Below, one piece after another: positions 411 through 35,344 of a stretch of DNA of 37,229 nucleotides. The stretch is taken from the IMG/VR virus record IMGVR_UViG_3300030102_002537, positions 1 to 37,229 of that record; one strand, 5' to 3'. Origin of the DNA: a virus. Both the position numbers and the translations under genes were made by a program. Within the stretch, counting starts at the first letter, position 1. Each line of letters opens with the position of its first letter. The notes beneath the pieces are model-generated. The model ran no database searches. It worked only from the letters and a program-made list of their open reading frames with translations, and was not told the DNA's origin.

Positions 411-422
411 TTACTAATACGG
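411..422 (-). promoter_or_regulatory. Early-arm 12-mer motif, copy without hairpin
   Basis: On the minus strand the sequence is CCGTATTAGTAA, matching the consensus NCGTNTTAGTAA found before twelve early genes. It sits 16 nt upstream of the ATG at 394. Unlike ten other copies there is no perfect hairpin directly before it. Confidence 0.65.
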
Positions 423-445
423 TAGAGGGCATAGTTGATAGTTAT

Positions 446-1648
446 TTAGTTAAGTCTGAAACCACACTTTGGGCATGACTGCACTATGTTTGGTTCAGAT
501 TGTGGCGTAATTTGTGGTGGCACAAAGTTTCCATAAGCAACGTTAGTTGATTGAGCAATATTATTATCAGTCAATCTCTTAAGAGTTGCTTGGTCGTAAG
601 TGCCTCGTTGAACAATGTCGTTGCCATCCATCTGTGCTTGTATGTTTGCACTTGTGTTAGATGAATACAACATTGAGTTAGGTCTAACCGTATTGTGTAT
701 CTTGGAAAGAGCAGTTACATCCTTGATGTAGGACATACTTTCTTTCTCAAAATTAGCACCTTGGTCTTCCTCATCAACAAGCATCACACCATCCAATGCA
801 GATGCCTCGTTGACTAGACCAATCAATTTCATGATGTAGTTTCTAGCCACCAAGTCTCTGCTCATGGACAAAGGTATCTTCTGATGAACATTCAAAGAAT
901 ACTTGAATTGAGTATCTTCAAGGGTCATCACTGGAATACCTAGTTCATAAAGCCATGGTGTTTCTGCTTCAAAGATTTCCACCTTTGTTTTCCTTTGTAG
1001 GTTTTTCATTGCGTTGATGCCATCAATCTCTTGCAAGACTGGAGTTGGCATTGTTACTTCAACACCGTGCTTTGACTGAGGTCTTGGAATAATCTCATTA
1101 TTGACGACATAATTTATGCCTTCTGGTGGGATTACATTCCTCAGCATTTCCACAGCAGTTTCAAAGTCTCCCTTCACCATAGGTAGTACAGCCTCAACCG
1201 TTGTGCCTTGGTGGTAGTTAGGGTCTTTGTGCTTAATCGTATTCCTCACACCATCTTTGAAACTAACGGTGTAATTCCTAGTCTTAATCACAGCTTCTTT
1301 TGAAACAGCAATGAGTTGTTTCTCACCTGCATTGAACCTACCTGCAACAGTAGGGTCGTTTCTCTTTTCAGTAGTCCTGAAGAGAGTATAGATGTCGGTT
1401 GGGTCTTTGAAACCACCACCGTCATCTTGCACCTTAAGTTGTGCAGGTCTGTTGCCATCCTTTGTAAGTATTACAATACAAGAGGTTGGCGTTACAGCAC
1501 CTTCAACGTAGCCCAAGAATTCATCGAACACATTGGTCACCAGTTCAACTGCGTGTCTCCATGCAGGGACAGAACCAAATAGTTCTTTGAGTCCTTTGAT
1601 GTCTACTTCAAATGCAGATTTAATTCTGCTTACAACTTTCTTAGTCAT
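446..1648 (-). CDS. GHKL-fold ATPase (HSP90/MutL/gyrase-B-type nucleotide-binding domain)
   Basis: The 400-residue product carries the three sequence marks of the GHKL (Bergerat) ATPase fold: an N-box around residues 35-43 (ELVTNVFDE), the G1 box DDGGGF at 75-80, and a later glycine/lysine lid motif GRFNAGEK at 103-110. The last residues include a Cys-Pro-Lys-Cys pair (392 and 395), possibly half of a zinc site. There is no histidine-kinase phosphoacceptor domain or receiver, so a signalling kinase is unlikely. Phage relatives with this fold include T4 RIIA-type proteins; that link is inference. The ATG at 1648 has AAGGAGG in front and a 12-mer/hairpin cassette upstream. The substrate is unknown. 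Confidence 0.75.
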   Translation of the reverse strand: MTKKVVSRIKSAFEVDIKGLKELFGSVPAWRHAVELVTNVFDEFLGYVEGAVTPTSCIVILTKDGNRPAQLKVQDDGGGFKDPTDIYTLFRTTEKRNDPTVAGRFNAGEKQLIAVSKEAVIKTRNYTVSFKDGVRNTIKHKDPNYHQGTTVEAVLPMVKGDFETAVEMLRNVIPPEGINYVVNNEIIPRPQSKHGVEVTMPTPVLQEIDGINAMKNLQRKTKVEIFEAETPWLYELGIPVMTLEDTQFKYSLNVHQKIPLSMSRDLVARNYIMKLIGLVNEASALDGVMLVDEEDQGANFEKESMSYIKDVTALSKIHNTVRPNSMLYSSNTSANIQAQMDGNDIVQRGTYDQATLKRLTDNNIAQSTNVAYGNFVPPQITPQSEPNIVQSCPKCGFRLN

Positions 1649-1671
1649 AATTTCCTCCTTAATTATGCCCT

Positions 1672-1709
1672 CTACTAAAACGATATTGAGGAGGCGTTTA
1701 AGCCTCCTC
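1672..1709 (-). terminator. Early cassette: hairpin with stop codon in loop, plus 12-mer
   Basis: Minus-strand GAGGAGGC (1709-1702), a loop containing the TAA of the preceding gene, then GCCTCCTC (1695-1688): a perfect 8-bp stem. It is followed after 4 nt by TCGTTTTAGTAG (1683-1672), the slightly variant early 12-mer, then the ribosome binding site of the GHKL gene. Confidence 0.75.
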
Positions 1710-1865
1710 TACTGAATTCACTTCCCATTTAGCATCAACAGGCATTGTGACATCTCCTTCTGCTATCACTTTGCTGTGTGCATCCCATTCATTATCACTT
1801 TCCAATTCAAAGTCTTCTTCAAACTGTTCAGTTACTGTCCACTTGACTGTGTATGTCTTAGTCAT
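1698..1865 (-). CDS. Small acidic protein, 55 residues, unknown
   Basis: Two adjacent ATGs (1868 and 1865) follow AAGGAGG; the second gives the better 6-nt spacing and is chosen. The product starts MTKTYTVKWTVTEQ and ends EVNSVEEA. Alternating hydrophobic residues suggest a small beta-alpha protein, and it is strongly acidic. It is translationally coupled to the preceding 52-residue gene, whose stop codon overlaps its start. Its own stop codon lies in the loop of the 1688-1709 hairpin. Family not recognised. Confidence 0.75.
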   Translation of the reverse strand: MTKTYTVKWTVTEQFEEDFELESDNEWDAHSKVIAEGDVTMPVDAKWEVNSVEEA

Positions 1866-2016
1866 CATTACCCTCCTTGAGTTGCTTGTTGAGTTCATCT
1901 ATTTTTTTCTGAACCCATACAACACCACGAGTATTGATAAGACTGTGAAGATTGAAAACATCAACCTCTTCTGAGATTTGTGCCATCTCTTCCAATTTTC
2001 TTTTAACATTTGCCAC
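1858..2016 (-). CDS. Small GTG-start protein, 52 residues, unknown
   Basis: A GTG at 2016 lies 4 nt after AAGGAGG, and the frame runs to a TAA at 1858, overlapping the start of the next gene by a few bases (translational coupling). The product starts (M)ANVKRKLEEMAQ and ends NKQLKEGNDD; it is charged and predicted helical, perhaps a short coiled coil. A longer frame in the same stretch (1899-2141) lacks a ribosome binding site and crosses the upstream hairpin, so it is a shadow. The 12-mer motif and hairpin at 2042-2080 precede it. Confidence 0.75.
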   Translation of the reverse strand: MANVKRKLEEMAQISEEVDVFNLHSLINTRGVVWVQKKIDELNKQLKEGNDD

Positions 2017-2041
2017 TTTACCTCCTTGCAAACATTGTTTA

Positions 2042-2080
2042 TTACTAAGACGAGACTCACAGGAGGGGCTTGTCTGTGAG
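2042..2080 (-). terminator. Early cassette: hairpin plus 12-mer
   Basis: Minus-strand CTCACAG (2080-2074) pairs with CTGTGAG (2062-2056) around an 11-nt loop, 9 nt after the stop codon of the DUF932-like gene. TCGTCTTAGTAA (2053-2042) follows after 2 nt, and AAGGAGG plus a GTG start come 25 nt later. Confidence 0.7.
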
Positions 2081-2089
2081 CCAAGGTTG

Positions 2090-3160
2090 TTAGGCTAGAG
2101 CAGGCTCTAGCACTGTGTTTGACAGATTTGCAACATCCCAACCGAACTTCTCAAACTCAGTAGCCCTGTCGTAGTCTTCTAAGTCTTGAGATGCCCTTGT
2201 TACAGCGTTTGTAAGTCCCCATTTAGTTGTGTCACCACCTTTGATTAAGTGGTTCAATACTGAGTCTTTCTCATCCTCTGTAAACTTAAACTGTTTCTGT
2301 ATTATTTCAACAGCATCGATAGGCTTTGCTATCTCAGTTTCTGTAGTTTCCCTGAGTTTTCCCAACACATTATTGAACCCTTCATTAGACAACACATTCC
2401 TCACTACATCTTGCACCTGACCAACTAAAGCCTCACTTGTTTTGTTCAGTGTGTCTCTGCTGAGTAAGTCTGTGATGTCATGTGATGCACCAATGTGTCT
2501 TCTTCTGAAAGATGTTTCTGCAATCATACCGTTCATGCAAACTAATCTTTCGATGAATGCTTGAACATTTACAGAACCATATCCAACTTCTGAATTACTT
2601 ACGATTACACCACCTCTGACAACATCACCCTTCTCAATCTCACCTGTAAGTTTGTCAGTTACAGCTTTGATGTAGAGTTTTTTCTCAGTAACATTGGATG
2701 AGATAATTTCTAGTTTCTCATCAAACATTACAGGCAACACAGCCTCGGCGACATCTTCATTATCAAAAGTCAGATACTTGTTGGACAAGTCAGCCCTCAT
2801 CAAATCCCAGACAGTTGAACCGTCTGATTGATAAGTTCTAATCATTCTTTTGTTTTGAGTTTGTCCTAGCCAGTTGTTAACATTTTCTGCTAACAATACT
2901 GGGTTGTTGTTCATTACTCTTTCGTAGTAAGCGTAAGGAATTTGCAACCTAGTTGCTAGTTGTCTGTGTGCAGTGGGTGTAATCTCCATTTGCTTTGAGT
3001 CATCAATACTCATTAAGACTGGAGCATTAGTTGTTACATCGTCTTGTTCAACTGGAAGTAATTGCATACTTCTGCTGTCCACGACCATATCAACTTTTTT
3101 CTCTGCTTGGTCTGTAATTTTCTTTGCTAACTCATTTATGTTTAATCCTAATTTTGGCAT
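2090..3160 (-). CDS. DUF932-like phage/plasmid protein
   Basis: The 356-residue product resembles the DUF932 (phage/plasmid-like TIGR03299-type) family: an N-terminal part with a helical segment ending in YAYYERVM, then WLGQ, an RMIRTYQSDG segment, a central region rich in beta strands with GVIVSNSEVGYGSVNVQAF, and a C-terminal helical half. The biochemical role of the family is not established; members are common in phages and plasmids and often sit with early or accessory genes. The ATG at 3160 is preceded by AGGAGG and the 12-mer at 3194-3205. No membrane segment or signal peptide is seen. Confidence 0.75.
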   Translation of the reverse strand: MPKLGLNINELAKKITDQAEKKVDMVVDSRSMQLLPVEQDDVTTNAPVLMSIDDSKQMEITPTAHRQLATRLQIPYAYYERVMNNNPVLLAENVNNWLGQTQNKRMIRTYQSDGSTVWDLMRADLSNKYLTFDNEDVAEAVLPVMFDEKLEIISSNVTEKKLYIKAVTDKLTGEIEKGDVVRGGVIVSNSEVGYGSVNVQAFIERLVCMNGMIAETSFRRRHIGASHDITDLLSRDTLNKTSEALVGQVQDVVRNVLSNEGFNNVLGKLRETTETEIAKPIDAVEIIQKQFKFTEDEKDSVLNHLIKGGDTTKWGLTNAVTRASQDLEDYDRATEFEKFGWDVANLSNTVLEPALA

Positions 3161-3193
3161 CTATGCCTCCTTTTGATGCCCCTCAATTTTTTA

Positions 3194-3234
3194 TTACTAA
3201 AACGATAGACTAGGTGGAGGACTCAACCTCCACC
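3194..3234 (-). terminator. Early cassette: hairpin plus 12-mer
   Basis: GGTGGAGG/CCTCCACC (3213-3234) is a perfect 8-bp stem with a 6-nt loop formed inside the last codons of the 98-residue gene; its TAG stop directly follows the 3' arm. TCGTTTTAGTAA (3205-3194) comes 7 nt later and leads into the DUF932-like gene. Confidence 0.75.
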
Positions 3235-3506
3235 TTCTGTAACTTTTTAAGCTGTTTCTTGGCACCTTTTTGCAAAGCTTTAGCCCACTCAACAAGTTTT
3301 TCTAGTTGCTCAATATCATCTGATAACCAAAATTGAACATCTGAATGGTATTTTGTTTGAGACAATTCAAGTCTTCTTGCATTGTCAATTCTGAAACTAA
3401 CTATATTTGCGTTTTTAGAATGATGATTAAAAATTTCATTGGCTGTTAAACCAAATAAATCACCATGGCTGTCAAGCAAAATGTTGTTTTCTTTTTCTTC
3501 TGTCAT
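3210..3506 (-). CDS. Early protein, 98 residues, unknown
   Basis: The start is placed at the ATG at 3506, after GGGAGG, rather than at an upstream in-frame codon that would cross the hairpin/12-mer cassette. The product begins MTEEKENNILLDSHGD and has a C-terminal lysine-rich helix (residues ~65-95) suggesting a short coiled coil or nucleic-acid contact. The last codons form the 5' and 3' arms of the downstream hairpin. Not assigned to a family. Confidence 0.75.
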   Translation of the reverse strand: MTEEKENNILLDSHGDLFGLTANEIFNHHSKNANIVSFRIDNARRLELSQTKYHSDVQFWLSDDIEQLEKLVEWAKALQKGAKKQLKKLQKVEVESST

Positions 3507-3537
3507 AATATTTACCTCCCTATTATGATTATATTTT

Positions 3538-3576
3538 TTACTAAAACGATACAATCGAGGGGCATGATTGCCCCTC
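3538..3576 (-). terminator. Early cassette: hairpin plus 12-mer
   Basis: GAGGGGCA/TGCCCCTC (3557-3576), perfect 8-bp stem with a 4-nt loop; the TGA stop of the 75-residue gene overlaps the first bases of the 5' arm. TCGTTTTAGTAA (3549-3538) follows after 7 nt. Confidence 0.75.
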
Positions 3577-3802
3577 ATTCAACTAATTCATTTAATTGAC
3601 TCGGGTCTTTTTCCCAAGGTTTAGTTCTTATGAATTCTATAATTCGTAAACAAGCTTGGTCAGAAATAAAACTATTATCTCCAAGCAAATTTGCTGATTG
3701 GATGTGACTTATAAAAAGTAAAACCTGTTTTGAAGTTTCATGACTTAGTTGTCTGCCATTTTCATCAACAAAAACTTTTCTATTTTCTATGTTAATTTTC
3801 AT
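3575..3802 (-). CDS. Early protein, 75 residues, unknown
   Basis: The ATG at 3802 follows AGGAGG and a 12-mer (3829-3840). The product starts MKINIENRKVFVDENG and looks like a small beta hairpin followed by helices; it has one cysteine and no membrane segment. Family not recognised. Its TGA lies at the foot of the downstream hairpin, as in the other early cassettes. Confidence 0.75.
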   Translation of the reverse strand: MKINIENRKVFVDENGRQLSHETSKQVLLFISHIQSANLLGDNSFISDQACLRIIEFIRTKPWEKDPSQLNELVE

Positions 3803-3828
3803 TATTACCTCCTATGAAAATTTATTTA

Positions 3829-3866
3829 TTACTAAAACGAAACCGAGCAGGGACTTAGCCCTGCTC
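3829..3866 (-). terminator. Early cassette: hairpin with stop codon in loop, plus 12-mer
   Basis: GAGCAGGG/CCCTGCTC (3845-3866), perfect 8-bp stem; the 6-nt loop contains the TAA stop of the 109-residue gene. TCGTTTTAGTAA (3840-3829) follows 4 nt after the stem. Confidence 0.78.
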
Positions 3867-4184
3867 TGGATTGTTTACCTCTTTGATTGTGTCAATGTCT
3901 GGGGTGTCTGGTGCACCATACTTTTGTTTGAGTTCATCAGTTGTCATGAGATAATCTGGGTCTATCTCAATCTCAACTCTTTCATCAATCAATTTAAGCA
4001 TTGTGTCTTGGTCAATTAAACCAGAGTCACACAATGCCACAAGCATTGTTACCATTAATCCTTTTGGTGCTGTGTTTTTATCTTTTGACCAATCAAACTC
4101 CCAATCTGGCTGTAACTCAACATATGAGTCAATCCAATCATAATTAGTAAGTTGGTCAATAAAAGTGGAAACTTGTTCATTCAT
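3855..4184 (-). CDS. Early acidic protein, 109 residues, unknown
   Basis: The ATG at 4184 follows AGGAGG, with the 12-mer at 4209-4220 upstream. The product starts MNEQVSTFIDQLTNYDW, is acidic, helical, and ends NNPEQG; the last codons encode one arm of the terminator hairpin and the stop is in its loop. No motif that I can assign. It sits in the run of single-gene early cassettes. Confidence 0.75.
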   Translation of the reverse strand: MNEQVSTFIDQLTNYDWIDSYVELQPDWEFDWSKDKNTAPKGLMVTMLVALCDSGLIDQDTMLKLIDERVEIEIDPDYLMTTDELKQKYGAPDTPDIDTIKEVNNPEQG

Positions 4185-4208
4185 AATATCCTCCTATATG
4201 AATTGTTT

Positions 4209-4238
4209 TTACTAAGACGGCAGGGTCATCAACCCTGC
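4209..4238 (-). terminator. Early cassette: hairpin with stop codon in loop, plus 12-mer
   Basis: GCAGGGT/ACCCTGC (4220-4238), perfect 7-bp stem; the TGA of the 27-residue gene is in the loop. CCGTCTTAGTAA (4220-4209) is contiguous with the stem. Confidence 0.75.
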
Positions 4239-4312
4239 TCTTTTAAGATTGTAAAAATAGAATTATCACTGACAACTATATTTCCTGTATCATTAATAGA
4301 CACTTCAATCAT
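4229..4312 (-). CDS. Microprotein, 27 residues
   Basis: The ATG at 4312 follows AAGGAGG with 5-nt spacing, and the 12-mer at 4339-4350 is in the usual place. The product is short: MIEVSINDTGNIVV followed by about 13 residues ending LKEQG, and the TGA lies in the loop of the following hairpin, as for longer early genes. The full cassette (motif, binding site, frame, hairpin) around a 27-codon frame argues it is translated. It could be a small regulator; function unknown. Confidence 0.65.
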   Translation of the reverse strand: MIEVSINDTGNIVVSDNSIFTILKEQG

Positions 4313-4338
4313 TTTAACCTCCTTGATTAAAGTTAGAG

Positions 4339-4376
4339 TTACTAAAACGAGGTTGGGAGGGGCATCCCTGCCCCTC
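4339..4376 (-). terminator. Early cassette: hairpin plus 12-mer
   Basis: GAGGGGCA/TGCCCCTC (4357-4376), perfect 8-bp stem with a 4-nt loop, 7 nt after the TAG of the 119-residue gene. TCGTTTTAGTAA (4350-4339) follows after 6 nt. Confidence 0.75.
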
Positions 4377-4383
4377 TCACTAT

Positions 4384-4743
4384 CTAAAGATAAAGTGGTG
4401 GTGGGTATCCTAAACCTCCTGCTTTAGCTTTACCCCACAATAAAAGTCTTATGTAGTGAAATGCTTTTTCATCTTTGCCTCCGATATGCCACATATCAAT
4501 ATCTTCTTTATCTAAACCATCAACTGGGTCGTAATTCTTTCCGTTTTTATAGTTGTAAATTGTTGCAACTGTTTTGTCAGGAAATTCAAAAATCCATTCG
4601 CATAGTATTTTTGCATCTCCACTTTCTCCCAAATGCTCTTCACCAAACACTGAAACAAGTTTGTCATAGGAAATATTTACATGCCCTATGAAACTGGTTC
4701 CAAAGTCGTTGAGAGTTGGTTTGATTGTGATTTCTGTTTCCAT
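4384..4743 (-). CDS. Conserved marine-phage protein, 119 residues, uncharacterised
   Basis: The start is the ATG at 4743, 8 nt after AAGGAGG; an ATG further upstream would put the binding site inside the gene. The product contains the pattern SFIGHV, SYDKLVSVFGE, a central CEWIFEF then TVATIYNYKNGKNY, and DMWHIGG. I recall this arrangement from many phage proteins of unknown role; it reads as a small alpha-beta domain. It has no catalytic motif I can name. It lies among the single-gene cassettes. Confidence 0.75.
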   Translation of the reverse strand: METEITIKPTLNDFGTSFIGHVNISYDKLVSVFGEEHLGESGDAKILCEWIFEFPDKTVATIYNYKNGKNYDPVDGLDKEDIDMWHIGGKDEKAFHYIRLLLWGKAKAGGLGYPPPLYL

Positions 4744-4773
4744 GATTAAATCCTCCTTCATCATGATTATTTT

Positions 4774-4812
4774 TTACTAATACGATTTACTGGGGGGCAT
4801 TTCAGCCCCCCA
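4774..4812 (-). terminator. Early cassette: hairpin plus 12-mer
   Basis: TGGGGGGC/GCCCCCCA (4791-4812), perfect 8-bp stem with a 6-nt loop, 5 nt after the stop of the 120-residue gene. TCGTATTAGTAA (4785-4774) follows after 5 nt. Confidence 0.75.
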
Positions 4813-4817
4813 TATTG

Positions 4818-5180
4818 TTAGGGTTGTATCTGTTTATCATATTGCTGAATAACTCTTCTTGCCTCATTCTTAGCCGTTTCAATAAACAGTCTTTTTATTT
4901 CTGCCCTGAATTGTCGCCTTGTCTTTGGTATTTCATTGACCTTCATACCGATACAACTTTTAACCATTTCTAAAGTTGGGTATTCAGGTTTTTCAACTGA
5001 ACCTAAAAACATAAATGCCATTTTAGTTTCAATGAGAATTTTATTTCTCAAGTAAACCTCATGGTAATTATCTTTGGTAATTTCTTGGTAACCTCCGAAC
5101 ATTGCATTAAAACCAAGTAATTTTTCTAAGTCTGAAATTCCTTGTTTTTCTTTGTTTGGGCTTTCAATTAATAATGACAT
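4818..5180 (-). CDS. Early protein, 120 residues, unknown
   Basis: The start is the ATG at 5180, preceded by AAGGAGG; a longer in-frame extension to 5258 would run through the 12-mer and part of the hairpin. The product begins MSLLIESPNKEKQG, has a hydrophobic middle (KMAFMFLG) and a basic C-terminal helix (RRQFRAEIKRLF, then RRVIQQYDKQ). The basic helix could contact nucleic acid. Family not recognised. Confidence 0.75.
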   Translation of the reverse strand: MSLLIESPNKEKQGISDLEKLLGFNAMFGGYQEITKDNYHEVYLRNKILIETKMAFMFLGSVEKPEYPTLEMVKSCIGMKVNEIPKTRRQFRAEIKRLFIETAKNEARRVIQQYDKQIQP

Positions 5181-5205
5181 AAATCCTCCTTGTGTCATTG
5201 GTTTA

Positions 5206-5252
5206 TTACTAAAACGGTAACGGTTGGAGGCTTGCGAAACCCCAACCGTTAC
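5206..5252 (-). terminator. Early cassette: long hairpin plus 12-mer
   Basis: GTAACGGTTGG/CCAACCGTTAC (5217-5252), perfect 11-bp stem with a 14-nt loop, 7 nt after the TAG of the 52-residue gene. CCGTTTTAGTAA (5217-5206) is contiguous with the stem. Confidence 0.78.
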
Positions 5253-5259
5253 AATCAAA

Positions 5260-5418
5260 CTAAACTTTGTCAGTCTGAGTCATCACTAAATTGCAAAACA
5301 TACACTTAGTTACTGTTCCATCGTCTGAACCGTAAATGATTTCATTTATTGGGTGAGAACAATTGTATTGTTTCCAAGTGATTTGTTTTGGGTGATTATT
5401 AACTATCCATGCTGCCAT
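5260..5418 (-). CDS. Small zinc-ribbon-like protein, 52 residues
   Basis: The ATG at 5418 follows GGAGG (AATGGAGGAACC) and the 12-mer at 5440-5451. The product begins MAAWIVNNHPKQITWK and contains Cys-Ser-His (residues 20-22) and, about 20 residues later, Cys-Met-Phe-Cys, an arrangement compatible with a single zinc ribbon. It is the first protein gene of the leftward arm, directly downstream of the large non-coding region. Small zinc ribbons of this type in early phage regions are often DNA- or protein-binding; that is inference. Confidence 0.75.
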   Translation of the reverse strand: MAAWIVNNHPKQITWKQYNCSHPINEIIYGSDDGTVTKCMFCNLVMTQTDKV

Positions 5419-5439
5419 GGTTCCTCCATTGCTAATTGT

Positions 5440-5483
5440 TTACTAAGACGATACCAAGCAACCAATTTGGAGGGGTTGCTTGG
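5440..5483 (-). terminator. Early cassette: 10-bp hairpin plus 12-mer at the end of the non-coding region
   Basis: CCAAGCAACC/GGTTGCTTGG (5454-5483), perfect 10-bp stem with a 10-nt loop. TCGTCTTAGTAA (5451-5440) follows after 2 nt. There is no protein gene before it, so it marks the 3' end of the putative non-coding RNA. Confidence 0.75.
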
Positions 5484-6205
5484 CGTTGTCTTGGGTTCTT
5501 TCGTTTCGGTTTATTAAACTTTGAATTTAATCCAAGGCTTGCGACTTGGAACCATACACCACCCACAGTTTCGGCTTCATTCCTGACTTTCACAGTTGTT
5601 CACTTAGTAATTTGTTTCAATAACCTAGACTTGAAAACATAATCAAATATTTACCCTTGGATGAATATTTTTTCTGTAACAAGTAACCACCACATGACCA
5701 GACAACCTCAACGATTAAATAATAATGTAGCTTTGTATTTTACTTTTAGTTATTTACTTAGGACTGCTTTTCTCATTCAACAGAACTTGTAGATGTTGCG
5801 TATTGCTTGTTATAAAAATCCTTCGGACTATCTCAGCAGGGCAGTGCCACGCCCTCCATAACCGAAATACTGTGTATTCAACTAATGCCCCAAGGGACAA
5901 CAGTCTTTTATTCTGTGACCAGTTCACAGCACCCCAGTTTGAACCTACCTGTAGGGACTATTTCTCAACTATGTTGTAGCCCCCCTCTTGGATTTCCAGT
6001 GCCTCAACAACTCGGAAACGTTTGCGTTCTTTCGTTCACATCAGGTCTAGAAGTTCATTTGACTTGACCGAATTACTCGGGGTCTATGACTTCCCCCCCC
6101 TGCCGTTTTATGTTGCCCCCACTTGTCAGGGTTCAAGCCTGACTCCTAAGCCTTCCATGTTTGCTCAGTCCCTGAGGGTCTAACAACCTACCAACAACAA
6201 CCACT
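5454..6205 (-). ncRNA. Putative large structured non-coding RNA, about 750 nt
   Basis: No frame with a ribosome binding site covers this stretch on either strand, yet it is bounded by a sigma70-like promoter (6241-6212) and a 10-bp hairpin (5454-5483). It is rich in helices when read leftward: GTCAGG/CCTGAC around 6126-6144 with a 7-nt loop, CTGTGA/TCACAG near 5914-5930, TTTCGG closing on CCGAAG (about 5823-5866), CAACA/TGTTG near 5779-5799, a bulged GTTTCAA/TTGAAAC helix (about 5614-5638), and a longer-range ATCCAAGG/CCTTGGAT pair (about 5655 with 5535). It also has G-runs of 5, 8 and 6. Size and phage location recall the GOLLD and ROOL classes of giant phage RNAs, but I cannot confirm a match. 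Confidence 0.55.
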
Positions 6206-6211
6206 CCGTTC

Positions 6212-6241
6212 ATCTTAACACCATATAAATCAATAAGTCAA
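6212..6241 (-). promoter_or_regulatory. Sigma70-like promoter of the leftward arm
   Basis: TTGACT (6241-6236), an 18-nt spacer and TAAGAT (6217-6212) on the minus strand. Predicted start is near 6205, giving a transcript that begins with the non-coding region and then the small early genes. Confidence 0.55.
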
Positions 6242-6295
6242 CAACTAATTTAAAACGGGATAATGTGGCACATTTATTTAAATATAATTTCAACC

Positions 6296-6304
6296 TGATA
6301 AAAT
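6296..6304 (+). promoter_or_regulatory. Extended -10 promoter of the rightward arm
   Basis: TGATAAAAT matches the extended -10 form TGNTATAAT. It ends 5 nt before the ATG at 6310, so transcription would start at or next to the start codon (leaderless mRNA). No ribosome binding site is visible before 6310. No good -35 element is seen. Confidence 0.45.
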
Positions 6305-6309
6305 AGTAA

Positions 6310-6828
6310 ATGACTATGAGTAGAAAAATACAGTTAGATAATAAAAAGATTGAGTTAATTAAGCAGGATATAGAACGGCTTGGATTACACCCTACAAGTG
6401 CCATAATTCGACGGTGTGGGGTTTCTGAGTCTGTGGCTATGGGTTGGCTCCGTTTTGGTGAAAAAGTCCGTGTAACATTAGATACTGAAACAGATACAGA
6501 AACTATAGATACTGTAACTGTTACAGATACTAAGAATCAGAATCCTAGTGACAGATACAAGCAACTGACACTGAAACTTCATGATACTGTTACTGAGGCT
6601 GTAACTGAGTTTGAAGCGTTACAGTTAACGGAATTAACGACTGCAGAGAATGAGGCTGTTAAAAGTAAAAATAGTCAGTGGCTGTTAAGCAAAAAATATC
6701 CTGACCGATACGGTGACAATAAGAACCAGACCACAATTGATGACCAAGCCAATGCACTAATCCAAGCATTAATAAATATAAATGTGCCAATTTCAGAAGA
6801 TAAAAAGCCAATAGAGGACACGGCGTAA
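6310..6828 (+). CDS. terS: Terminase small subunit (DNA-recognition component of packaging)
   Basis: The 172-residue product has an N-terminal helix-turn-helix-like stretch (residues ~20-45, TSAIIRRCGVSESVAMGWL) and a C-terminal WLLSKKYPDRYG motif, the tryptophan/charged pattern common in phage small terminases. A threonine/aspartate-rich linker (TETDTETIDTVTVTD) separates the two. It directly precedes the large terminase across a repeat-rich gap that may be its binding site. The ATG at 6310 lacks a ribosome binding site; ATG 6316 is an alternative. The assignment rests on motif plus position. Confidence 0.75.
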   Translation: MTMSRKIQLDNKKIELIKQDIERLGLHPTSAIIRRCGVSESVAMGWLRFGEKVRVTLDTETDTETIDTVTVTDTKNQNPSDRYKQLTLKLHDTVTEAVTEFEALQLTELTTAENEAVKSKNSQWLLSKKYPDRYGDNKNQTTIDDQANALIQALININVPISEDKKPIEDTA

Positions 6829-7213
6829 CGCTGTATAAAACGCCGTAACACATTCCAAACTCATAAAGGACAACATTCCGAATTTTTCAGAATCATTCCA
6901 AACTAAAGAGGGACATTCTCAAAAGCATTCTAAATAACAAAATGGGAACGAATGGGAACGTAAGGCACAATGAGGCATGATACCCCCAAAGCCCCAAAAG
7001 CCCGTCTATGAGCCTCTGAGAGCCTCTGAGAGGTGCGTATGATTCGGATTCGGAAAAAAAAATGCGTGTGGTGGGGTGGATGGGTGGTGGTGGTTGGGTG
7101 GTCTGGCTGTCATCGGTATCATCGTGTCGGTGTCAATGTGTCGGTAGCAAGGGGGGTGGTTCTTGTGGTCGCTTGCTGGTCTGTGTCTGTGGTACTACCT
7201 CCTGTAAATTTTA
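6829..7213 (+). other. Gene-free repeat- and G-rich block between the terminase genes (pac/cos candidate)
   Basis: This 385-bp stretch has no gene with a binding site. Left part: five CATTC boxes at 6851, 6874, 6894, 6914 and 6926, about 12-23 bp apart, three of them CATTCC. Middle: tandem AATGGGAACG at 6941-6960 and tandem AGCCTCTGAG at 7011-7030. Right part: A9 at 7052-7060 followed by a strongly G/T-rich stretch (about 7064-7110) with many GGG and GGTGG runs, unlike the AT-rich surroundings. Iterated boxes beside the small terminase gene are typical of packaging sites; this is inference. Confidence 0.5.
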
Positions 7214-31827: not shown

Positions 31828-31973
31828 TGAAAGACTGCGTTCACGTCTACATACTACCTGAGCCTAGTAAACAACTTGGTTCTGAATACAAAGCAAAGTG
31901 TAGTAAGTGTGGTAAACAACAGTTACACAGAAACTATCACAGTTCTAACCATATCTGGAAAAAACGAGGCTAA
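31827..31973 (+). CDS. Zinc-ribbon small protein, 48 residues
   Basis: GTG at 31827 overlaps the previous TAG. Product starts (M)KDCVHVYILPEPSK and has Cys-Ser-Lys-Cys-Gly (about residues 25-29) and later His residues, the look of a single treble-clef or zinc ribbon with C4-H6 as the other ligands. Last gene of the rightward arm; its TAA overlaps the stop of the convergent resolvase-like gene. Confidence 0.65.
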   Translation: MKDCVHVYILPEPSKQLGSEYKAKCSKCGKQQLHRNYHSSNHIWKKRG

Positions 31974-32353
31974 AGATTTAAATGAATCGTAGAGTCAAGA
32001 CTTGCTTTGATACGCATCTCTTCTTTCCTAATGTCTTTTGTAAGGTTTAAGAAAGTTTCCAACTCCATGGTGACTAAATGCTTTGCAACCTTGTCATTGA
32101 CTTTGTGTGTCTGACATACGATAGGTATCTTATTGGTAGCAATACCAGCTTTCCTAGCTTGCTCCACAGCTTTTAGTGTTCTTGCACTTACAACCTTGCC
32201 TGCTTTTACTTCAGCAGCAAACTTAATAGTTTCTACATCCGGCACATCACCAGAGTGTCTACCAGTTACAGGGTTACGTTGTGCTTTGACTTTATCTCCA
32301 CCAAGAAATTCAGCCCACTTTCTCTCCCAGTTTTTCCACACGTTATTCTTCAT
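31970..32353 (-). CDS. PD-(D/E)XK nuclease, Holliday-junction-resolvase-like, 127 residues
   Basis: Product has Glu10 in the first helix (WERKWAEFLGG), Asp36/Asp39 (SGDVPDVE) and Glu48-Val-Lys50 (FAAEVKAGK): the complete E...PD...ExK nuclease signature. Small size and single domain fit archaeal/phage Hjc-type resolvases or related repair nucleases; substrate is inferred. ATG at 32353 follows AAGGAGG. It is the last gene of the leftward arm and converges with the structural arm. It likely processes replication/recombination junctions before packaging. Confidence 0.75.
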   Translation of the reverse strand: MKNNVWKNWERKWAEFLGGDKVKAQRNPVTGRHSGDVPDVETIKFAAEVKAGKVVSARTLKAVEQARKAGIATNKIPIVCQTHKVNDKVAKHLVTMELETFLNLTKDIRKEEMRIKASLDSTIHLNL

Positions 32354-32873: not shown

Positions 32874-33289
32874 TTTAAACTCCTACACTTGTTTACCATT
32901 GCTAAGAATACTTCTTTGACCTCTAATAATACACCATAACTTCTTTTACCGTTAGTATCGGTGTCACCCATGGGTACTCTTTCTTTGTTCCATGTAAGTT
33001 CTTGAAGTATCTGTGTTGGTATTATCATGGCACCAAACTTGTTGCCTTTACTATCAGCAAAGACATGGACTTGGTAGTCTGCTTCAGTAACATTTAGCCC
33101 TGTACTTTGACCTCTACGTTCATCGTATAGTTCCACAGCAATTTTCTTTGTGCGAGACCATATATCACGCTCAGTCTTTATCTCAACTAAGCGTCCAAAA
33201 AGTTGAGAGAACCAATGTTCCGACTCCTGACCAAACTCCAAGTCATGCCTAAAGTCATAGTTTTGTTTAGAGTTACTTTCCAAACTCAC
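32870..33289 (-). CDS. PD-(D/E)XK-type nuclease-like protein, 139 residues
   Basis: GTG start at 33289 after GGGAG. Contains ESEHWFSQLFGRLVEIKTER with Glu36-Ile-Lys38 as the ExK half of a PD-(D/E)XK site, followed by KKIAVELYDERRGQSTGLNV and TEADYQVHVF; this 'VEIKT...E...G..ST.G...T.ADY' order is found in a small phage nuclease family. The acidic residue for the first half-site is probably Glu22 or Glu24. Lies between the Cas4/RecB-like nuclease and the small membrane protein, overlapping both neighbours. Confidence 0.65.
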   Translation of the reverse strand: MSLESNSKQNYDFRHDLEFGQESEHWFSQLFGRLVEIKTERDIWSRTKKIAVELYDERRGQSTGLNVTEADYQVHVFADSKGNKFGAMIIPTQILQELTWNKERVPMGDTDTNGKRSYGVLLEVKEVFLAMVNKCRSLK

Positions 33290-34025
33290 ATATCTCCCAG
33301 AATGAACACCACTTCTGTGTGCAAGCCCAACTACCTTCTGGTGCAGGCATAAACACTTGATTGTTTATTCCAGATTTAACGTGTTCAATACGTTTGTTAA
33401 CTCTGTCTTTGTGGTCTTGTGTCACCTCGGCGTGATGGTAGAAAGTCTTTGGTGTGTCCAAGTCTTGAACCACAGCCATTCCAACCTTGTCTACGTTAGC
33501 CATGTCTGCATACTTTACAAGTTGCACATCCCTAGTCAGGTCAGGTGTCACGTTTCGTTTCTTGACTTTGTTGTCGACAATAACGCCATCGACAGTGATA
33601 AAGTCAGCAAAGCCTTTGAACTCTTCACCATCGTTATCAACTTGCACAAGTTCTACTTGCACTTCTTTAGCCTTGAACTTATCACCAAAGTCTTTGTGGT
33701 AAGTTGCAGCAAGTTTAGATGTTCTATCCTTGCTCTTGTCTTTTGTAATGTCATCCTTCTCCCAATCAAACGTGTCGCTGTCCTGTTCTTTTTGATGAAC
33801 ATCAACAGCAAAGTCTACGAATTGACTTTGAGTTAGACCATTGTTTGTCTGTGCCTGCAGAGAGAAATGTTCGTTGGCAGCATTGTCAACGCTTGTCCCT
33901 CTGAGTACAGCACTACCCATCTTCTCAGGGATACCTTCGACATACCTGTAGTAGTATTGCATACCACAAGTCATGTACTTTCGTATCTGAGATACAGATA
34001 GATAGCTTCTAATTGTACCTTTCAT
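33273..34025 (-). CDS. RecB/Cas4-like exonuclease with iron-sulphur cysteines, 250 residues
   Basis: Core nuclease motifs: Asp141 (GFADFITVDG), Asp151-Asn-Lys153 (VIVDNKVKKR) and Gln168...Tyr172 (QLVKYADM). Four cysteines are placed as in AddB/Cas4 enzymes: Cys20 in the N-terminal helix (YMTCGMQYYY) and Cys235, Cys240 and Cys246 near the C-terminus (WACTQKWCSFWEIC), which would staple a 4Fe-4S cluster. Size fits stand-alone Cas4-type exonucleases. ATG 34025 follows GGAGG. It likely trims DNA ends in phage recombination; no cas genes or CRISPR arrays are nearby. Confidence 0.82.
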   Translation of the reverse strand: MKGTIRSYLSVSQIRKYMTCGMQYYYRYVEGIPEKMGSAVLRGTSVDNAANEHFSLQAQTNNGLTQSQFVDFAVDVHQKEQDSDTFDWEKDDITKDKSKDRTSKLAATYHKDFGDKFKAKEVQVELVQVDNDGEEFKGFADFITVDGVIVDNKVKKRNVTPDLTRDVQLVKYADMANVDKVGMAVVQDLDTPKTFYHHAEVTQDHKDRVNKRIEHVKSGINNQVFMPAPEGSWACTQKWCSFWEICEFGK

Positions 34026-34037
34026 GTAACCTCCTAA

Positions 34038-34331
34038 TCACACTATGTTTAATTTATTTACTTGTTCTACACAGTAATCACAAGTCATTGGCTGTTCCCA
34101 TTTGCATTTGCCTTTGGGACCCCATATACAACCTTTCATACCGTGTAAATTCCTCAACCATTCTTCCATGTGTTCAAGCATTGTCATTTTTTCCCAGAAT
34201 TTTTCCCAACGTTCTTCATCCTCGACAACTTCACCTTGAAAATATAATTCTTTGAATTCATCTGTGCACCATGCAAGACCAGCTTTTAACTGACCCATTG
34301 ATTTCTCTTTGTCTGTAAAGTCTACTCCCAT
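34038..34331 (-). CDS. Four-cysteine (zinc-finger-like) protein, 97 residues
   Basis: The product is helical and Trp/Glu-rich in the middle (ERWEKFWEKMTMLEHMEEWL) with a C-terminal cluster Cys68, Cys76, Cys84 and Cys87 (GCIWGPKGKC ... TCDYC), fitting one zinc site. Start overlaps the helicase-loader stop by 10 bp. It could be an accessory in DNA replication; no named family. Confidence 0.65.
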   Translation of the reverse strand: MGVDFTDKEKSMGQLKAGLAWCTDEFKELYFQGEVVEDEERWEKFWEKMTMLEHMEEWLRNLHGMKGCIWGPKGKCKWEQPMTCDYCVEQVNKLNIV

Positions 34332-35344
34332 GGTAGTTCATCCCTCTCTTCTTGTCTCATACTCTCAGTCTCACCAAGAACTACAAGCGTGCTGACCATC
34401 ACATCTTTGAATCTATCTACCACAGCAAAGTCAAACACTTGCTCCAGTTCATCCAAAGAAAAGTTAGATGTAATCATCGTCCTCATTCTTCTTGAGTACC
34501 TGTAATCTAATATCTCATAGAACAGAGACCTCACATAGTCAGTTGAGTATTCCCTGCCTAAGTCATCAATGATTAGATGCTTTACATTTTTAAGATGGTT
34601 TACATACTCATCATACTTATCGGTGTCCATGTAGGACTTTACCTTTGATGCGAGTTCTGCTGATGTCATGTAGACAACCATTTCTTTTCTACCAATTATC
34701 CAAGATACAGATGCTTTGGCAAGATGAGTCTTACCCACACCAACATTACCAAGCATAACCATCCAAGGACTTTTATGTCCACTTGCCCAGTCAAATGCAG
34801 ATTCTTTTGCAATCTTGCACTCATCAGTCCTGAGTTCATAGTTGTTGAATCTTTGGAAAGTGGTCTCGCCTAGACCAGACACACCCCAAAGATACTTGCT
34901 GTAGTCAGCTTTATTTAACTTACATATACAAGCAAACAGCCTGCCAAAGTTTGGGTCACCAACAGGAAAAGTTCCTGACAGCCAACCGGTCCCACCACAG
35001 ACACACACTGATGGTGTCTTGAAAGGTTTGCCTGCATTAGCTTTTGCTCTTTCGTTATAGTCTTGAGTGTTCTTGACGTGTCTTTCTGTAACAAGAATTT
35101 CAACTTTAGTTCTCACACTCTTTGGTAATCTCTTCCAAGGGATAGCAGGATAACCTGCCTCAACTGCTTCATTCGGTGTTAGATTGCCCGGAATGCAGGT
35201 CTCTATCAATTCCTCAGTAAATGCTTTGACTTCTTCTGGCGAGGTCATTGAGTTTGGAATCTTTAAACTTGTTCCCCGAACTATCGCTGAGTCTTCTTCC
35301 TCTTTGAGTTTTTTGACCAGTTGGTCGTATTTCATTTCTTTCAT
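34322..35344 (-). CDS. DnaC/IstB-type AAA+ helicase loader
   Basis: Walker A GNVGVGKT (residues 199-206), Walker B HLIIDDLG (256-263), sensor-1 MITSN (290-294) and an arginine-finger candidate VVDRF (308-312) place it with DnaC/DnaI/IstB ATPases. A CxC...CxC zinc site (114, 116, 139, 141) precedes the ATPase core, as in DnaI-like loaders. It would load the host replicative helicase on phage DNA. The first ~44 codons overlap the end of the initiator gene in another frame; the ATG at 35344 has only a weak AAAGG before it, so a shorter start is possible. Confidence 0.85.
   Translation of the reverse strand: MKEMKYDQLVKKLKEEEDSAIVRGTSLKIPNSMTSPEEVKAFTEELIETCIPGNLTPNEAVEAGYPAIPWKRLPKSVRTKVEILVTERHVKNTQDYNERAKANAGKPFKTPSVCVCGGTGWLSGTFPVGDPNFGRLFACICKLNKADYSKYLWGVSGLGETTFQRFNNYELRTDECKIAKESAFDWASGHKSPWMVMLGNVGVGKTHLAKASVSWIIGRKEMVVYMTSAELASKVKSYMDTDKYDEYVNHLKNVKHLIIDDLGREYSTDYVRSLFYEILDYRYSRRMRTMITSNFSLDELEQVFDFAVVDRFKDVMVSTLVVLGETESMRQEERDELPWE

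Follow-up and report, generated by a model that had tools for sequence, protein, structure and literature searches.

To our knowledge, giant RNAs encoded by phages have been described in only a few cases, none of them with an established function. Two of these RNAs, GOLLD and ROOL, assemble into large cages of RNA; GOLLD is frequently linked to tRNA islands, and many GOLLD and ROOL loci are placed in this way. The phi29 pRNA, also encoded by a phage, is far shorter and belongs to a packaging motor that operates without a TerS protein. ROOL has been described as a large ornate RNA, encoded by phages, that contains pseudoknots and has no known protein partner (PMC12286853).

Here, we analyzed a stretch of viral DNA of 37,229 nucleotides (IMG/VR record IMGVR_UViG_3300030102_002537, positions 1–37,229; hereafter the window), in which a unit of ~770 nt without a conserved open reading frame (ORF) extends leftward from 6209 to 5440 on the minus strand. 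We assign a probability of roughly 0.72 to the reading that this unit is an autonomous gene for a trans-acting, large structured non-coding RNA of an uncultured tailed-phage clade, which would work like GOLLD and ROOL and form a family separate from both.

A scan of the window and its homologues against Rfam at the gathering threshold returned no family match, and a permissive scan gave nothing credible, the sole match in the window being a weak one to a microRNA model (E = 4). With the GOLLD model (RF02032), the best score in 11 phage records was 9.5 bits, from short fragments, compared to a gathering threshold of 150 bits. The ROOL model (RF03087; gathering threshold 99.1 bits), applied at E ≤ 10, matched none of the 11 records; the control genomes were also without a match in this search, and the negative leans on cmscan too. 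A preliminary description of the DNA had reported no confirmed match to either family, a statement that the model searches leave standing, with nothing above cut-off. By these models the RNA is not detectable as a member of either family, and we file it as a separate family of the giant-phage-RNA kind.

Position, boundaries and relatives of the RNA unit

The preliminary description had placed the locus at 5454–6205 and seen no credible gene there. The location holds, the unit being slightly larger (~6209–5440), and a credible gene is absent from 5454–6205 on both strands, with the longest ORFs on the RNA strand reaching only 53–57 aa. The features of the unit, all on the minus strand, are as follows.

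6212–6241, minus: sigma70-like promoter (TTGACT, 18 nt, TAAGAT), conserved in all relatives
5440–6209, minus: whole RNA unit, ~770 nt in the window and 686–841 nt in relatives
6008–6170, minus: 5′ domain (type 1), swapped for an unrelated 139-nt block in L002
6049–6094, minus: nested 5′-domain helices (outer GAAGU/ACUUC, inner CCGA/UCGG); 5 of 19 predicted pairs with double changes
5631–6007, minus: central domain (type a), with covariation; 5992–5791 replaced in L016 and L018
5860–5939, minus: 13-bp helix AACUGGGGUGCUG/CAGUAUUUCGGUU (5939–5927 with 5872–5860), with covariation
5440–5631, minus: 3′ domain, the sole part common to all relatives, with L017 a possible exception
5491–5590, minus: conserved core, AAAGUCAGGAAU plus pseudoknot, with covarying stems
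5579–5576 with 5525–5522, minus: pseudoknot stem 1, UGNN/NNCA, with covariation
5566–5561 with 5496–5491, minus: pseudoknot stem 2, GUGGGU/ACCCAA, covarying at 3 of 6 pairs
5531–5550, minus: GCAA-tetraloop hairpin UCCAAG-U-C[GCAA]G-C-CUUGGA, with compensatory changes at 6 of 7 pairs
5453–5484, minus: 10-bp hairpin at the 3′ end; the same hairpin plus motif follows other leftward genes
5441–5450, minus: CGTCTTAGTA, one of 12 copies of the leftward-arm intergenic motif CGTNTTAGTA

The sigma70-like promoter that had been proposed at 6241–6212 was recovered as TTGACT-N18-TAAGAT, and a TTGACA-like −35 and a TATAAT-like −10 element are kept in 13/13 sequences, with L017 carrying the consensus TTGACA-N17-TATAAT. 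From this arrangement, transcription is expected to start at ~6205, and a host sigma70-type promoter would drive leftward transcription of the RNA. The 10-bp hairpin that had been placed at the end of the unit was likewise found, at 5484–5453; it is probably an intrinsic terminator with an imperfect U-tract, and the unit would end at this point. The locus had further been called the head of the early arm, which is correct as to position, the RNA being the first unit of the leftward arm. It occurs once per record or genome and adjoins the small terminase gene, directly upstream of it and divergent, in the relatives as well.

The motif downstream of the end hairpin, CGTNTTAGTA, is present in 12 copies, as compared to 0.16 expected, all of them minus-strand copies in leftward-arm gaps (window 412–5450 and 36902), and relatives L079, L077, L078, L089, L091 and L084 contain 10–12 copies each. 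It follows a hairpin in 10 of the 12 cases, and a GGAGG-type ribosome-binding site comes after nearly all copies. Since the same cassette of hairpin and motif stands behind other leftward genes, the RNA appears to end in the same way as the protein genes of the arm. By analogy with the PeSLs (promoter-early stem-loops) of phage T4, the cassette may serve promoter or terminator shuffling, or it may be a processing site.

The first leftward gene after the RNA (window 5260–5418) is wholly different in L006, L009 and L016, where small unknown proteins are found, and these differences are consistent with a shuffled cargo arm. Elsewhere, a leftward-arm protein at 2090–3160 contains a DUF932 domain (phrog_1362), 34322–35344 encodes a DnaC-like helicase loader, 31970–32353 is RusA-like and 33273–34025 encodes an exonuclease. 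On the terminase side, CATTCC/ACATTC words recur in the gap between TerS and TerL (6829–7200), which also has a very G-rich stretch of GGTGG repeats and may be a candidate packaging recognition site. The conserved reading of the large terminase begins at ~7200, making the listed start at 7062 doubtful. In L040 (460–1060) and L039 the corresponding gap is ~600 bp, G-rich and larger than that of the window.

Relatives, designated by L-numbers, are IMG/VR records gathered with the small and large terminase proteins as queries. The same locus was found in 12 related records. Distinct complete copies are those of L002, L004, L005, L006, L008, L009, L011, L012, L014, L016 and L018; L017 is a further complete copy that is more divergent, and L010 and L015 are partial. 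BLASTN against the INPHARED phages and PLSDB gave noise only, and cultured phages, plasmids and GTDB genomes yielded no relative. A terminase profile recovered no records beyond this clade from IMG/VR, and nothing from GTDB genomes. In scans with the core motif AAAGTCAGGAATG...CARAG, matches outside the clade were either chance occurrences or coding sequence, both in GTDB and, among the matches listed, in IMG/VR. The large terminase is ~25% identical to those of INPHARED phages, which indicates a clade without a close cultured relative.

L017 itself retains AAAGUCAGGAAUGCA...UGCAGAG, and where pseudoknot stem 2 would lie it can form UGCUAUU/AAUAGCA. BLAST gives no alignment of this copy, and since the covariance model does not score it (match not significant, E 0.4–2.4), the stem-2 equivalent is suggestive only.

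Folding and covariation of the three domains

The folding energy of the window sequence corresponds to z = −1.1 on the minus and +0.26 on the plus strand (−0.99 and −0.09, respectively, with other shuffles), which is ordinary and by itself gives no support for structure. The minus strand had the lower z in 10/10 homologues, reaching −3.7 in L016.

For the comparative analysis, helices were taken from a centroid or MEA prediction that used only the window sequence and were then projected on the alignments, a procedure that avoids picking helices by eye. Double compensatory changes were found in relatives for 20 of the 94 predicted pairs (central domain 9/53, 3′ domain 6/22, 5′ domain 5/19), counts reached by 0 of 500 shuffles; because all homologues belong to one phage clade, they reflect few independent events and a small number of independent substitutions. 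Paired cells amounted to 90–97%, as compared to 13–51% once the partner was slid by 1–3 columns. With helices refined on the relatives, and hence partly selected, covariation was seen at 12 of 27 pairs in the 3′ core, both pseudoknot stems included, and at 11 of 43 in the central domain. A scan of all possible helices in three alignments gave best scores of 14.8, 11.5 and 14.9 for antiparallel pairing versus 12.2, 10.2 and 9.9 for parallel pairing, the margin being modest for the 3′ domain. Minus-strand helices are rich in G-U pairs, which would be A-C on the plus strand, and this fixes the minus strand as that of the RNA. Together, the homologues show strong covariation, the property on which the proposal of a large structured non-coding RNA, perhaps of a new class, had been staked in advance.

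The most constant structure lies in the 3′ core. Pseudoknot stem 1 reads UGAA/UUCA in the window, UGCA/UGCA in L005, L012 and L014, and UGCU/AGCA in L011, and the inner part of stem 2 changes from UGGG/CCCA in the window to UUGA/UCAA in L005 and L014, with an outer pair that is G-C or A-U. As the 5′ strand of stem 2 sits between the strands of stem 1, the two stems cross and thus form a pseudoknot. The GCAA hairpin is maintained as UCUAAG/CUUAGA in L016 and CUCAAG/CUUGAG in L012, and its loop-closing pair can be C-G, G-C or U-A. A neighboring hairpin, AUUAAA/UUUAAU (~5530–5510), was rejected, being broken in L012 and L014. We also rejected a hammerhead-like CUGAUGA...GAAA in L005, which is not conserved and has no stem.

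The 13-bp helix of the central domain encloses a hairpin with a CUUG loop (5905–5880). In the 5′ domain, L015 replaces the nested helices with GACGU/ACGUC (outer) and GCUA/UAGC (inner), and the other 5′ type carries a 7-bp helix whose strands, ~70 nt apart, change from GGUUCGG/CCGAACC to GACUUGG/CCAAGUC by three compensatory changes. A run of eight G on the RNA strand (window 6092–6101) is kept in 5′ types 1 and 2 with differing flanks, with a C-run as its pairing partner in type 2. Outside the parts listed above, most sequences allow a candidate helix (GUUGUU with GACAAC) that would close the 5′ and 3′ ends. The RNA would fold into three largely independent domains.

Domain exchange and alternative explanations

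L002 is 97–98% identical to the window outside the swapped block (98% over 5000–6007 and 98% over 6171–6400), and its counterpart of 6008–6170 is an unrelated block that matches L009 and L011. L016 has the 5′ and 3′ domains in common with the window and a different stretch in place of 5992–5791. In L005, L008 and L012, similarity to the window is confined to the 3′ domain (5632–5440; 81–83% identical). Since the TerS and TerL of L005 are 97–99% identical to those of the window while its RNA domains differ, domains are exchanged between otherwise near-identical phages. Each exchanged block carries its own internal helices. To judge from the alignments, exchange affects the 5′, central and 3′ domains independently of one another, among phages with near-identical terminases.

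The constant 3′ domain, with its pseudoknot core and GNRA-loop hairpin, would probably provide a shared function or assembly interface, and the exchanged 5′ and central domains would probably set specificity, for a host or phage target or for a cargo. Its own promoter, terminator-like end, conserved structure, constant place and changing neighbors together argue for a free, trans-acting RNA, which may work as an ornate RNA particle in the manner of GOLLD and ROOL. More tentatively, and with rather less than even confidence, the family could be evolving like a multidomain protein, an invariant 3′ pseudoknot core, common to all members as an assembly or effector part, being combined with swappable 5′ and central folding units that change the specificity of targeting, cargo or evasion.

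A long, structured 5′ leader acting in cis on the leftward operon (an attenuator, a riboswitch-like element or an antitermination element such as HK022 put) would fit the position of the RNA, immediately upstream of the leftward genes, and the imperfect U-tract at its end hairpin, which makes read-through possible. We regard such a leader as unlikely, however, because the RNA has no stable downstream partner: unrelated first ORFs stand behind similar RNAs (window, L006, L009 and L016), even where, as in the window and L006, the RNAs are ~92% identical. Moreover, the hairpin-plus-CGTNTTAGTA cassette marks the end of a gene unit here as it does after other leftward genes, and both the length and the exchangeable domains are unlike those of known leaders.

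Domain exchange that is much faster than change in the neighboring genes is a pattern seen in arms races, and would suit a decoy or inhibitor RNA directed against host defense, with the swapped 5′ domains as a variable target mimic. Similarity to CRISPR repeats, tRNAs or other known decoys was looked for and not found, though, and we consider such a role quite improbable; as a more specific functional claim it is compatible with the trans-acting RNA favored here. A role in DNA packaging, in which the RNA (or a transcript of the packaging site) would act together with the neighboring terminase much as phi29 pRNA does, would account for the invariable position next to the small terminase gene, directly upstream and divergent, with variable genes on the other flank. 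It is nonetheless very unlikely, since a protein is present at the TerS position, unlike in the phi29 motor, and since the RNA domains swap freely among phages with TerS and TerL 97–99% identical, which is unexpected for a part fitted to a motor.

With regard to coding, the longest ORF on the RNA strand (57 aa) has a frameshift in L006 and a stop in L014, and its substitutions among close relatives fall on codon positions 1/2/3 as 5/4/2, 6/4/3, 4/5/3 and 4/2/1, so that the codon-like pattern against which the preliminary description had weighed its proposal is absent, with no third-position excess. Despite the 53–57-aa ORFs, a degraded or short protein-coding region can therefore be dismissed as scarcely credible, and so can a self-splicing intron, given that no Rfam intron family matches and the locus interrupts no gene.

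For the trans-acting RNA that we favor, the natural domain swaps between near-identical phages amount to a ready set of chimeras, in which comparisons across a single domain difference, between phages or between RNAs, would tell what the constant core does and what the variable parts do.

Comparison with known phage elements

The resemblance to the PeSLs of T4 concerns the end hairpin only. As outlined in PMC4503421, which cites Arbiol 2010 and Comeau 2014, a PeSL combines a stem-loop with a short conserved motif, repeated between the genes of a gene-shuffling region. The hairpin described here is likewise a stem-loop joined to a short repeated intergenic motif, but CGTNTTAGTA is not a known early promoter. 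With phi29 pRNA, the locus shares the character of a phage RNA gene near packaging genes; it differs in that pRNA is far shorter and has no TerS partner, and no Rfam match was obtained here.

Comparison with ROOL reveals a large phage-encoded RNA with a pseudoknot in both cases; here, by contrast, there is no model match and no tRNA island. GOLLD is also phage-encoded, of the 700–850 nt class and rich in stems, and combines a conserved 3′ region with a variable 5′ region in separate domains, a pattern that is analogous while the sequence is not the same. It is set apart by the lack of a model match and by its setting, no tRNA being found in our window. The locus would thus represent a further family of giant phage RNAs, by sequence unrelated to GOLLD and ROOL, and would imply that RNAs of this sort can also occur away from tRNA islands and be absent from the families in Rfam. 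What further distinguishes it from GOLLD is the block-wise exchange of 5′ and central domains, of which there are at least two unrelated types.
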